From positions 1-64,000 of the forward strand of contig NZ_BKAH01000008.1 of the NCBI RefSeq assembly GCF_007992455.1: a DNA stretch of 64,000 bases. Reading direction: 5' to 3'. The translations under genes and the position numbers were made by a program. This document shows positions 31-13,849 of the stretch, piece by piece; within the stretch, counting starts at the first letter, position 1; the number at the start of each line of letters is the position of its first letter. Under the pieces are notes generated by a model. The model did no database searches. It worked only from the letters and a program-made list of their open reading frames with translations, and was not told the DNA's origin. The stretch comes from Microbacterium saccharophilum (GTDB taxonomy: Bacteria > Actinomycetota > Actinomycetes > Actinomycetales > Microbacteriaceae).

Positions 31-60
31 CGCGAGCTGGCGCGAGCTGGCGCGAGCTGG
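31..60. repeat. Three tandem copies of a 10-mer
   Basis: CGCGAGCTGG is repeated three times without interruption just downstream of the pilB-like stop codon. No reading frame of interest covers it. It may be simple slippage. Confidence 0.6.
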
Positions 61-88
61 CGCGCGCGAGGGTGTCCGCGCGAGCGGC

Positions 89-1759
89 TCAGATCGAGAC
101 GCGCAGCACTTCCTCGATGGTGGTGATGCCTTCGAGGACCTTGCTGAACCCGTCCTCGCGAAGGGGGATCATGCCCTCCTCGAGCGCCGCCTGCCGCAGC
201 TCCGTGCCGGTCGCATGGGCGACGATCAGCTGCTCGAGCCGCTCGCTCACCTCCATCACCTCGTGCAGCGCGACGCGCCCGCGGTAGCCGGTGCCGGAGC
301 AGTCCGAGCATCCGACGGCGCGGTACAGCACGGGCGGATCGAGCGGGTTGTGCGGGAACTTCACCGACGACAGCACGTCGCGCGACTCGGTGTACGCCTC
401 CCGGCACCGCACGCACAACCGCCGAGCCAGGCGCTGCGCGACCACGGCCGACAGCGCCGTCCCGACGAGGAACGGCTCGCAGCCGATCTCCGTCAGACGC
501 GTCAGTGCGCTGGGGGCGTCGTTCGTGTGCAGCGTCGACAGCACGAGGTGACCGGTCAGCGCCGCCTCGATGGAGATCGTCGCCGTCTCCTGATCGCGGA
601 TCTCGCCGACGAGCACGACGTCCGGGTCGGAGCGCAGAATCGAGCGCAGCGCCGCCTGGAAGGTCATTCCGGCGCGCGGGTTCACCTGCACCTGGTTGAT
701 GCCGGCCATCCGGTACTCGACGGGGTCCTCGACGGTGATGACGTTGATCCGCGGGTTCGCGACCGTGTTGAGCGCCGTGTAGAGCGTGGTCGACTTGCCC
801 GACCCGGTCGGGCCGGTCACGAGCACCATGCCGTGCGGACGTGTGATGGCGCCGCGGAACCGCTGCTCGTTGCGCATGGAGAAGCGCAGGTCGCCCATCG
901 TCAGCGACTGCGCCGAGCTGTCCAGGATGCGCATGACGATCTTCTCGCCCCACACCGTCGGCAGCGTCGCAAGACGCAGATCGATCTGGCGGCCGTCATG
1001 GTGCACCGAGAGGCGACCGTCCTGCGGCTTGCGACGCTCGGCGATGTCGACGGCGGCCATGATCTTCAGTCGCGACAGCACGCCGTCCTGGATGGCGCGG
1101 TCGGCCCGCTGCATCTCGTGCAGCACGCCGTCGATGCGGTACCGCACCGTGAGCTGCCGCTCGCCGGGCTCGATGTGGATGTCGCTCGCCCGGTCGTTGA
1201 TGGCCTGCGCGATGAGCAGGTTCACGAACCGCACGACGGGGGCGTCGTCGACACCCTCCTCGATCGACTCCGTCGCCGCGGCGCCCGAGTCGGCGGCGGC
1301 GATCTCGCCGATCTGCTCCGACAGGTCGATGAGTTCCTCGTCCGACCGCAGGAACCTGCCGAACATCGCCTCCAGCGCATCGGCGGCCACGACGACGGGG
1401 CGGATGTTCAGCTCGGTCGCCGTCGCGACGTCGTCGATCGCGATGAGGTCGGTGGGGTCCAGCATCCCGATCGTGAGACTGCGGCGGCCTCGCTCGACAG
1501 GGATGAGGTGGTAGCGGCGGCACAGGGATGCCGGCACAGTCGCGATCGTCTCGGCGCTGAGACCGGCAGAACCGAGGTCGACGAACGCATACCCGGTCTG
1601 CTCGGCGATGCCTTCCGCGATCTGCGTCTCGGTCACGAGGCGCGCCGCGACCAGCTGCTGGCGCAGCTCGGGGCCGTCGCCGAACTGCGCGACGGCATCC
1701 CACATGTCCTCGGCGCGAATGATCCCAGAGCGCACGAGGGTCTCGGCGAGTCCCTTCAC
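89..1759 (-). CDS. pilB: Type IV pilus / type II secretion assembly ATPase (PilB/GspE family)
   Basis: Hexameric cytoplasmic ATPase expected to power pilus or pseudopilus extension. About 556 aa from a GTG at 1759, preceded by a GA-rich ribosome site (AGGGGAAGGGG); a longer upstream reading is unlikely because it lacks family similarity. The N-terminal region (about residues 1-130) looks like the GspE N-domain. Walker A GPTGSGKST is near residues 316-324, the Walker B-type VVLVGEIRD near 381-389, and a zinc tetracysteine CVRC...CSDC follows near the C-terminus. These features separate it from PilT retraction ATPases, which lack the long N-domain. Other pilus genes presumably lie left of the window, downstream in its own direction, so the system type (competence pilus or other) cannot be judged here. 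Confidence 0.88.
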   Translation of the reverse strand: MKGLAETLVRSGIIRAEDMWDAVAQFGDGPELRQQLVAARLVTETQIAEGIAEQTGYAFVDLGSAGLSAETIATVPASLCRRYHLIPVERGRRSLTIGMLDPTDLIAIDDVATATELNIRPVVVAADALEAMFGRFLRSDEELIDLSEQIGEIAAADSGAAATESIEEGVDDAPVVRFVNLLIAQAINDRASDIHIEPGERQLTVRYRIDGVLHEMQRADRAIQDGVLSRLKIMAAVDIAERRKPQDGRLSVHHDGRQIDLRLATLPTVWGEKIVMRILDSSAQSLTMGDLRFSMRNEQRFRGAITRPHGMVLVTGPTGSGKSTTLYTALNTVANPRINVITVEDPVEYRMAGINQVQVNPRAGMTFQAALRSILRSDPDVVLVGEIRDQETATISIEAALTGHLVLSTLHTNDAPSALTRLTEIGCEPFLVGTALSAVVAQRLARRLCVRCREAYTESRDVLSSVKFPHNPLDPPVLYRAVGCSDCSGTGYRGRVALHEVMEVSERLEQLIVAHATGTELRQAALEEGMIPLREDGFSKVLEGITTIEEVLRVSI

Positions 1760-12300: not shown

Positions 12301-12306
12301 AGCCTA
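12301..12306 (-). promoter_or_regulatory. -10 element of lpd, near-leaderless
   Basis: TAGGCT on the minus strand, 6 bases before the lpd ATG. The intervening bases also form a GGAGG-like ribosome site, so it is unclear which mode of initiation is used. Confidence 0.45.
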
Positions 12307-12873
12307 GTCCTCGCGGGAGGGTCGTCTCCGTGCCAGCAGGACGGCGGCGAGGATGCCGGCACCGACGACGATCACGCCACCGCCGATGAGGAGAGGCGTC
12401 GCATCGAACGTCGATCCGTCGCCGCGGGGGGCGTTCGCTGCCTCGCACGTCGCATCCGCGCCGTCGTCGCCGACCAGGAAGGCGAACTCGCCGGAGATCG
12501 GGTGGCTGTCGCTGGAGACCGTCCGCCACAGCACCGTCACGGCGCCCGTCGCCTCGCCGGACAGCGCCTGCGTCACGCGGGTGCCGTCCACGACGGGCGC
12601 GCCGTCGGCGAGAGGCGTGCAGGAGGAGTCCAGCACGGAGACCTCGGTGGCCCCGGCGTCGGTCAGCAGCACGCCGGAGAACGTCAGCGTCAGCGACGCG
12701 GGCAGCGTCTCCACCGTGGTTCCCGCCGCCGGGTCGGTGCCGATGAGCTCATCGTGCGCGAACGCGGGCGAGGCCGTCACCGCCAGCAGGACTCCGAGCA
12801 CGAGACCGGCCAGCGCCGTGGCGCGGCGGCGGGGACGAGGAGCGGGGGAGGTCACCCCAACGAGCCTAGCCAT
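12304..12873 (-). CDS. CopC/YcnJ-type copper-binding surface protein
   Basis: 189 aa. Signal peptide (hydrophobic LAGLVLGVLLAVTASPAFA, about residues 20-38) is followed by mature AHDELIGTDPAAGTTVE, the typical start of CopC domains, whose N-terminal His is a copper ligand. A second His occurs in SSDSHPISGEFAF, as in the family. A Cys pair flanks the domain, and a C-terminal membrane helix ends in ARRRPSRED, so the protein is anchored outside the cell. No fused CopD domain. The ATG at 12873 follows GGAAGG; GTG starts a few residues later are possible. It is divergent from the Met/Cys-rich protein gene. Confidence 0.82.
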   Translation of the reverse strand: MARLVGVTSPAPRPRRRATALAGLVLGVLLAVTASPAFAHDELIGTDPAAGTTVETLPASLTLTFSGVLLTDAGATEVSVLDSSCTPLADGAPVVDGTRVTQALSGEATGAVTVLWRTVSSDSHPISGEFAFLVGDDGADATCEAANAPRGDGSTFDATPLLIGGGVIVVGAGILAAVLLARRRPSRED

Positions 12874-12953
12874 GCCTTCCGGAGGGGCGGCCGCCCGCCT
12901 AGCATGGCGGCAGGCGGGCACGCCGGCCCGCGGCTGACGAGAGCGGGTACGAG

Positions 12954-13367
12954 ATGGACGCGATGATGAGGGACGCCATGTCGAAGGACATGATGTCGAT
13001 GGAGGGCATGCCGGAGATCGACATGGCCGTCATGCAGGCGTGTATGGACGCGTGTGCGGCGTGTGAGCAGGCGTGCGTCGTCTGCTCCGTCCAGATGATG
13101 GACGGGCAGATGATGGACTGCGCGCCGGCGTGCATGAACTGCGCCGACATGTGCAACACGATGATGCGCGCCATGATGCGGATGCAGGGGATGACGCCGG
13201 CATCCCTGATGTCGATGCTCGACGCGTGCATCGCGATGTGTCAGACGTGCATGGACATGTGCATGCCGCACGCCGACATGAGCGCCGTGTGCAAGATGTG
13301 CGCGGACTCCTGCCGGGCCTGCATGGACGCGTGCATGGCGATGAAGAACGCGATGTCGATGGCGTGA
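12954..13367 (+). CDS. Met/Cys-rich four-helix copper-storage-like protein (Csp/DUF326 type)
   Basis: 137 aa containing about 36 Met and 18 Cys, close to 40 percent of residues. The Cys fall in helical spacings (CxxxCxxCxxxC repeated in several blocks, such as CMDACAACEQACVVC and CRACMDAC), which is the layout of the copper storage proteins Csp1/Csp3, whose Cys line the core of a four-helix bundle and bind many Cu(I) ions. No signal peptide is visible, so it resembles the cytosolic Csp3 type. The excess of Met is unusual. ATG at 12954, with no clear ribosome site; TAGCAT at 12900-12905 may be its -10. Divergent from the CopC-like gene, supporting a copper role. The copper function is inferred. 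Confidence 0.75.
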   Translation: MDAMMRDAMSKDMMSMEGMPEIDMAVMQACMDACAACEQACVVCSVQMMDGQMMDCAPACMNCADMCNTMMRAMMRMQGMTPASLMSMLDACIAMCQTCMDMCMPHADMSAVCKMCADSCRACMDACMAMKNAMSMA

Positions 13368-13385
13368 GCCCCGACCGGTCCGCCG

Positions 13386-13733
13386 TCAGCCGAGGCGGAG
13401 CGCGTTGAACTGCCGCGTGCCGACACTCAGCACGTGGTAGCGGGGATGGAACGCGACGGGCGCGCCCGGCTGCACGGCATCCGCCGCGCCCGCCCCGTTC
13501 CAGAGCTCGATCCGCTCGCCGTCCAGCGTGTGGACGATGACCGTGCCGTCGTCGTGCCGCTCGCCCACGAGGGCGTCGACCCACTCGGCCGGCGTCGCGG
13601 AGACGAGCCGGGCCTGGATGAGGTGGACCGCATGACCCGGTGCGAACGTCGAGCAGGCTCCGCCGCGAGCGCACATGCACGCCGCGACCTGACGCACCGG
13701 GGTGGTCGTGAGGCGGCTGGGCTGCGGGGACAC
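13386..13733 (-). CDS. Unknown protein with an N-terminal Cys cluster
   Basis: 115 aa, GTG start at 13733 preceded by AAGGAG at good spacing. Residues 15-40 hold a CMCARGGAC cluster and several His (FAPGHAVH). The rest looks like small beta strands (GTVIVHTLDGERIELWN; PVAFHPRYHVLSVG). I do not recognise a family. It is convergent with the Met/Cys-rich gene, 18 bases away, which hints at a metal-related role without proving it. Confidence 0.6.
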   Translation of the reverse strand: MSPQPSRLTTTPVRQVAACMCARGGACSTFAPGHAVHLIQARLVSATPAEWVDALVGERHDDGTVIVHTLDGERIELWNGAGAADAVQPGAPVAFHPRYHVLSVGTRQFNALRLG

Positions 13734-13832
13734 GGGATGCTCCTTGTGACTGAGCCGGTCGTTTCCGGCTGAGGCGGTCTCGGTAGGGAGAGGCTACGTT
13801 CCGGCCTCGAGCAGGTCACGCCCGCCGACACA

Positions 13833-13849
13833 CGCGGAAACATTCCGCG
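13833..13849. promoter_or_regulatory. Dyad between the Cys-cluster gene and garA
   Basis: CGCGGAA-ACA-TTCCGCG, perfect 7-base arms. Its place between divergent genes suggests an operator. Confidence 0.35.

Follow-up and report, generated by a model that had tools for sequence, protein, structure and literature searches.

The locus described here lies in a window of 64,000 nucleotides from Microbacterium saccharophilum (positions 1 to 64,000 of contig NZ_BKAH01000008.1). It contains a gene for a methionine-rich protein related to the copper storage proteins (Csp), here called csp, which is flanked by a copC-like gene on one side and, on the other, by a convergent gene for a small protein that we refer to as the partner (Table 1).

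Table 1. Genes, predicted structural elements and putative control sites of the locus. Nucleotide positions are those of the window.
Feature	Position	Strand	Details
CopC gene	12304-12921		Divergent from csp; PF04234, 64.8 bits
csp leader	12900-12931	+	TAGCAT (12900-12905, -10-like), then inverted repeat GCGGG-N8-CCCGC (12914-12931)
Met-rich Csp3-type gene (csp)	12954-13367	+	137 aa, 36 Met, 18 Cys
N-terminal helix of csp product	residues 3-14		Short, Met-rich; low confidence in the model
Helices of csp product (predicted)	residues 24-50, 57-75, 82-106, 111-136		Four-helix bundle
Convergent partner gene	13386-13733	-	115 aa, GTG start
N-terminus of partner			Low confidence; Cys19, Cys21, Cys27, Gly33-His34
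Partner model (predicted)	residues 35-45, 52-114		Helix (35-45), small beta barrel (52-114)
Probable partner promoter	13791-13820	-	CGTGAC (13820-13815), 18 nt, TAGCCT (13796-13791)
Direct-repeat element upstream of partner	13826-13842	-	TGTTTCC-GCG-TGTGTCG; family form TGTTKCG-N3-TGTGACG

The initial annotation of this DNA had estimated the Met and Cys content of the csp product at about 36 and 18 residues, and a recount gave exactly these numbers. The mean of the seven other genes of the window is 1.7% Met and 0.5% Cys; if rates of 2% (Met) and 0.6% (Cys) are assumed, the csp counts have binomial probabilities of 1e-29 and 7e-19, respectively. Because GC content at third positions is 0.96, and because dN/dS among relatives ranges from 0.02 to 0.23 (13 measurable pairs of 14 tried), as expected under purifying selection, csp can be considered a real, selected gene. 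The source genome (2.99 Mb, 31 contigs) contains a single csp match, and the closest named relatives of its product are found in Microbacterium (93% identity, L031). Microbacterium-like csp loci were also present on contigs labelled Stenotrophomonas maltophilia P13 (L038, 85% identity) and Planococcus sp. (L052, 75% identity), two assemblies that are probably contaminated or misnamed. Read directly by eye, the protein shows neither a twin Arg nor a hydrophobic leader, and the lack of a visible export signal suggests that it may be cytosolic.

Comparison with proteins of known structure relates the csp product to the Csp3 type. The S. lividans Csp matched it with an E value of 3e-12 as a single sequence and of 7e-28 as a profile. 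A structure model (pLDDT 86.7), for which the input per protein was the window protein together with 56 of the 75 listed relatives, predicts the four-helix bundle of Csp topology that the initial annotation had proposed to look for, and its best PDB match by Foldseek was again the S. lividans Csp (6ek9; TM 0.78/0.88, the 0.88 referring to the target; rmsd 1.4). Regarding the profile comparison suggested at the same time, the expected families were matched, but both scores stay under the curated cut-offs, so that the protein is formally a member of neither DUF326 (PF03860; 19.9 bits, cut-off 20.4, E 7e-4) nor Csp1 (TIGR04401; 29.6 bits, cut-off 100, E 7e-7). A complete lack of Csp or DUF326 profile matches, or a model devoid of a four-helix core, had been named as grounds for giving up the assignment, and neither was observed. 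The Csp-like spacing of Cys noticed at first sight was also borne out: Cys residues occupy one face of each of the four predicted helices (face vector length 0.88-0.93 per helix), with 17 of the 18 inside the modelled helices and Cys56 just ahead of helix 2. Of the 18 canonical Cys columns, 17 are common to the window protein and ordinary Csp3s. Sequence, profile and model together argue for a protein of Csp3 type.

The Met excess, which had been flagged as untypical of Csps, is the property of a discrete class. Among 197 Csp domains, from Microbacteriaceae and a few related loci, 157 have 20-45 Met, 40 have 0-6 and none falls between; in a scan at the order level, the 80 further Csp places that were read all had 0-7 Met. 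The 157 Met-rich domains represent 151 distinct sequences; a few loci are the same place twice, and start codons of relatives were chosen by script. Three second Csp copies (in G391, G049 and, as a fragment, in G584) fell outside the order-scan reading. In a tree built from 88 of 190 rows, a single branch (SH-aLRT 80) sets apart all 50 Met-rich rows, although their composition was flagged and the Met bias itself may draw them together. Support rises to 99 if one long-branched ordinary row (L275 from G223) is admitted to the Met-rich side. This Csp is short, with 1 Met and 16 Cys, and its grouping with the Met-rich class could reflect either an early offshoot or a long-branch artefact. In the genomes of L126 and L127, the Met-rich Csp with its partner has an ordinary Csp3 at a distance of roughly 2 and 7 kb, which offers a comparison within one cell.

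Apart from Met content, the classes differ at the bundle mouth and in their Cys ladders. According to PMC10155185, classical Csp3s have three His at the mouth, in an alpha3-loop-alpha4 motif. Our ordinary class (n=38) has His at the three positions in 37, 37 and 38 of 38 proteins, whereas Microbacterium-type Met-rich Csps (n=82) keep His106 in 81 and have Ser at position 110 in 80 and Val at position 112 in 81. The Met-rich Csp is not filed as a classical Csp3 because these second and third motif His are lost. At column 60, every one of the 151 distinct Met-rich proteins has Cys, and 36 of 38 ordinary ones have Asn or Asp; by spacing rather than by superposition, this column is equated with Asn58 of MtCsp3, a Cu(I) ligand according to PMC5171941. 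Column 48, a Cys in ordinary Csps, is Met in 72 of the 82 Microbacterium-type proteins. Further Met residues take the place of Leu, Ile or Val (columns 27, 31, 61, 66, 74, 115 and 130) and of charged or polar residues (columns 24, 75, 86, 104 and 124). The Cys core is almost intact in the 82 Microbacterium-type proteins. In the 69 others, core Cys are often replaced by Ala, Thr, Gly or Met (columns 37, 41, 63, 67, 92, 96 and 123), with columns 44, 56, 60, 99, 103, 116 and 120 kept in at least 57 of them. Overall, the number of Cys ranges from 18 down to 9, the lowest value outside Microbacterium, while Met stays at 20-45; this erosion makes a plain Cu(I)-thiolate store a poor fit.

Downstream, the initial annotation had pointed to a convergent protein with a Cys cluster, which has Cys at positions 19, 21 and 27 and belongs to a family that has no name in Pfam or NCBIfam. 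At E values up to 1, the window partner matched nothing in either database, and among 29 members of the family no Pfam family was matched by more than one at E 0.1. Its structure model (pLDDT 82) combines a single helix with a small barrel, preceded by a tail of low confidence, and the fold resembles only common OB/MOP-like arrangements (Z up to 6.8, Foldseek E 7e-3). Two PDB profile matches were set aside, Tako8/Ika8, for which no stretch passes alone, and FAP210, with an E value of 0.15. Partner genes are under purifying selection (dN/dS 0.04-0.39). The Microbacterium partners that were aligned all share Cys19, Cys21, Cys27, Gly33-His34, Trp51, Asp53, Gly90, Pro92 and His96; across 28 further partners, mostly from other genera, the invariant residues are Cys27, Gly33, His34, Trp51, Asp53, Gly90, Pro92, His96 and Gly105, and more distant partners lack parts of the set. 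The C..GH motif was found in 125 of 150 loci and was missing in 25, one of which (L110) is cut by a contig end, so the Cys cluster is not essential to pairing. By number of Cys in the Csp, the motif is present in 95 of 96 loci at 16-18 Cys (the miss being L110), 15 of 18 at 14-15 and 15 of 36 at 9-13, a raw correlation of rho 0.70. Co-loss of Cys in store and partner was nevertheless rejected, as this correlation fails a test on independent pairs (three supported pairs). A wider actinobacterial family of stand-alone, partner-like proteins also exists in varied contexts (L181-L190, L192, L194, L196 and L198-L200), with the motif C..PGH..H.IQ ... W.DA.V ... WHH ... PG.PV..HE.HVL; seven stand-alone relatives scanned (six of this family and L201) had no Pfam match above cut-off.

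The association between the two genes is nearly strict. Of 157 loci with a Met-rich gene, 156 have a partner next to it, convergent without exception and in 154 cases within 1.7 kb; the one locus that lacks it is L081. In contrast, when flanks of 2-3 kb were read to either side of 40 ordinary Csp loci, none had a partner of its own. Where both Csp classes are present (L126 and L127), the partner adjoins the Met-rich one. Scanning the family gave the same picture: Csps were found in 113 of 299 genomes and partners in 83 of 298, and by hand count 82 genomes have both, 31 have a Csp without partner and one (G236) has a partner homologue but lacks a Csp. For each of the 31, one Csp or more was read, and all were ordinary; part of the Csps in the 82 partner-positive genomes were read for Met number. 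Two of these 82 (G212 and G268) have a second, unpaired partner homologue, which in G268 (L201, contig 51) lies without a Csp between a ClpB-like end and an M3 peptidase. At the order level, partner homologues were detected in 48 and Csps in 101 of 396 genomes. All 31 genomes with a Met-rich Csp, G601 among them, carry the convergent partner. In the remaining 70 genomes with a Csp, every copy that was read is ordinary, and 67 of these genomes lack any partner homologue, the exceptions (G379, G427 and G584) having one elsewhere in the genome. The 17 genomes that contain a partner homologue outside the pair-bearing groups belong to other families, and the sequence read around the homologue, in most cases 4 kb per side, shows no Csp; those with the poorest scores (E 1e-5 to 8e-4) are possibly not genuine relatives.

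The pair is also found in changing surroundings. When we compared 30 loci from 30 genera, drawn from the collected Met-rich loci with one per genus, only 15 of 435 locus pairs had any flanking homologue in common within 3 kb. Three genomes of family f9 carry the pair, and their Csps are nested inside the Met-rich clade. A DNA pattern for the MMRxM(x)R motif, run phylum-wide, matched 17 of 396 genomes; of its 18 hits only four code for a Csp, and these all come from the family of the window. Since the pattern missed two of six sampled genomes known to carry a Csp (G142 and G164), it indicates rarity elsewhere but does not prove it. Plasmid searches returned no partner match and, as Csp matches, three distant Azospirillum sequences only, a PHROGs search had no match and an Rfam search gave nothing credible.

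Partner genes appear to have a promoter of their own. Their upstream regions show the direct repeat TGTTKCG-N3-TGTGACG followed by a -35/-10-like pair. In the window, the pair at 13791-13820 was read by eye from the alignment, a consensus scan having found none. A matrix for the element was trained on 24 loci, of which 23 exceed a bar set above all 362 background stretches of the window. The bar was exceeded by 75 of 81 held-out Microbacterium partners and by 38 of 47 others, two of which are repeats (L126 of a training locus, L131 of a Microbacterium one); the nine misses were L141, L143-L145, L191, L193, L195, L197 and L299. The element is absent from all three f9 loci and from several loci with the short partner form. 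Of the 17 partner homologues that lack a csp (14 from other families, three from Microbacteriaceae), one passed. The stand-alone homologue L201 carries the element at 16.8 bits. No shared operator for both genes was found: 0 of 110 csp upstream regions have the element on the coding strand (three on either strand: L016, L019 and L030). The csp leader in Microbacterium instead features a TAGCAT-like -10 and the inverted repeat GGCGGG-n-CCCGC, seen in 40 of 85 cases vs 0.8 expected from shuffles. No terminator between csp and partner was found by scan, and hairpins there are not exceptional. We rejected a genome-wide regulon as well: six one-mismatch hits in the source genome, vs three for the reversed control, are too few to name a regulator. 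The 10-bp direct repeat would presumably suit OmpR-type regulators such as MtrA, PhoP or GlnR, which are unproven candidates. Two genomes of genus g3 (L311 and L318) have a second exact copy of the motif, in L311 beside a GntR/aminotransferase-like regulator, next to nitrilase-like and hydantoinase-like genes (names from translations).

Taken together, we consider that positions 12954-13733 probably constitute a portable two-gene unit, formed by a Met-rich cytosolic metal store and a partner that acts on it. This reading is built on the observed class, descent, pairing, changing flanks and partner promoter element, along with the predicted fold; metal binding, storage, cytosolic location and the role of the partner are what we infer. 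The first product, which descends from Csp3 and has its predicted four-helix bundle remodelled by methionine, would be a cytosolic metal store. In Microbacterium, it retains 17 of the 18 canonical Cys columns and has gained one new Cys at the site that is Asn or Asp in ordinary members, with aliphatic and surface residues turned into Met and two of the three mouth His lost. Such a protein would bind Cu(I), or another ion of similar softness, by thiolates that are assisted by thioethers, and the altered mouth should change the speed of metal entry and exit. The second product, apparently made from its own promoter, combines a predicted small barrel with an N-terminal Cys-Cys-Cys/Gly-His segment. 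Its target would be the store, for which it most probably serves as an adaptor in loading, unloading or guarding, and store and partner would be under separate control. The source genome encodes four CopA-type ATPases over cut-off, four CsoR-type repressors and two stand-alone HMA open frames of about CopZ size; with these genes elsewhere in the genome, the two-gene unit is an addition, and a new copper chaperone is not obviously needed. A more specific version, in which the partner is a new dedicated metallochaperone or gate whose Cys/His tail passes Cu(I) or Ag(I) to and from the mouth of the Met-lined bundle, thereby forming a regulated, quick-release reservoir that moves between genomes as a unit with separate promoters, is tentative and rather doubtful.

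It is unlikely that we are dealing with an ordinary Csp3 under neutral bias, storing Cu(I) as the S. lividans Csp does, with Met as passive filler and the partner as a chance neighbour. Fold and canonical Cys columns agree with such a protein. However, drift of this kind would have to accommodate the jump in Met number from one class to the other, the presence of Met where charged or polar residues used to be, and ordinary Csp3s with 0-6 Met in the same family and even in the same genomes (L126 and L127), besides a pairing that persists despite changing flanks.

The metal or its destination could be different, with the store serving Ag, Hg or Cd, or supplying Cu to one enzyme, the partner delivering to that target instead of loading the store. 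We hold this to be quite unlikely: the Met-softened ligand set and the CopA-, CsoR- and CopZ-type genes located elsewhere would suit it, but no common flanking gene suggests either a target or a metal.

A role as oxidant sink has a precedent in MrpX, a periplasmic Met-rich peptide in which Met is oxidised reversibly and repaired by Met sulfoxide reductase. By analogy, Met of the csp product would take up hypochlorite or peroxide and be repaired in the same way, the Csp fold being a mere scaffold. By the helical-wheel angle, 14 of 23 helical Met point more than 60 degrees away from the Cys face, Met replaces buried aliphatic as well as exposed polar residues, and it remains high in many genera that have lost core Cys, all of which would be compatible with a sink. 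Against this, several Cys columns and His106 are nearly invariant, and a scan of six proteins of the window, encoded by the three genes and by three of their neighbours, found no Msr. We consider the sink improbable.

Finally, the initial annotation had recognised the divergent neighbour as a CopC-like anchored protein, and rightly so: its PF04234 score exceeds the cut-off of 23.3, and a hydrophobic stretch followed by a basic tail can be read directly at its C-terminus, although it stays below the NF033814 equivalog cut-off (48.5 vs 95). Translation probably begins at the ATG at 12873 rather than at the GTG at 12921, a signal-peptide-like start following the former. Across 18 genomes of the genus group of the window, the csp-partner cassette sits between copC and garA in nine; the arrangement lpd-copC-garA stands without it in seven, six of which have the cassette elsewhere and one (G492) not at all, and no copC was found beside lpd in the other two. 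Within 110 loci, many of them close Microbacterium relatives, copC occurred near csp in flanks of 1.5-5 kb (contig permitting) only where lpd or garA was present too. The CopC neighbour is incidental because lpd-copC-garA stands without the cassette, and on the basis of synteny we rejected it as a functional companion; the partner, not CopC, is the conserved companion. The proposal that CopC captures copper at the surface and passes it to an adjacent cytosolic store, the three genes forming one system, agrees with the adjacent, divergent arrangement of copC and csp in the window and with copC lying beside csp in half of these genomes but is largely contradicted by this synteny and very improbable.

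The filling and emptying of cytosolic Csp3 is an open question in the copper field, and a class with a genetic partner offers a direct test. The 151 distinct bundles, with Cys falling from 18 to 9 and Met at 20-45, also provide a natural series for the sharing of thiolates and thioethers in metal stores. More generally, the pair may point to an additional, dedicated component of metal storage in bacteria. In the open-access PMC literature, we found no paper whose title or opening lines of the abstract deal with a Met-rich Csp class or a csp-partner pair.

Among known systems, CopZ chaperones resemble the partner in a possible role only, as the partner is a predicted small OB/MOP-like barrel; PMC7558416 reports that CopZ loads Csp in S. 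lividans and describes the loading of Csp3 stores as not completely known. Csp1 proteins (TIGR04401) share with the csp product a weak profile match and Met at the bundle mouth, the latter described for MtCsp1 in PMC5171941. Unlike these Tat-exported proteins, the csp product has no visible Tat signal, scores below the cut-off of 100 and shows a weaker fold match than to Csp3. The RkCsp3 subgroup of Methylocystis Rockwell (115 aa, 16 Cys) is likewise without the alpha3-loop-alpha4 His motif and has some Met ligands; however, it ranked lower by Foldseek (E 0.15), and the accessible part of the source describes neither general Met-richness nor a partner gene (PMC10155185). The closest system is Csp3 itself (the S. 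lividans Csp/Ccsp, PDB 6ek9 and kin, MtCsp3 and BsCsp3), with which the csp product has the bundle, the inner Cys ladders and the first motif His in common. The ordinary Csp3 members compared have 0-7 Met, whereas the Met-rich class has 20-45 and a nearly strict partner gene; in Microbacterium, moreover, Ser and Val replace the second and third His, Cys replaces the Asn/Asp ligand, and one Cys has become Met. The Met-rich protein departs from classical Csp3s in its His motif and differs in its Met content and in having a partner, while its fold derives from Csp3 and its mode of action would be that of a Csp3.
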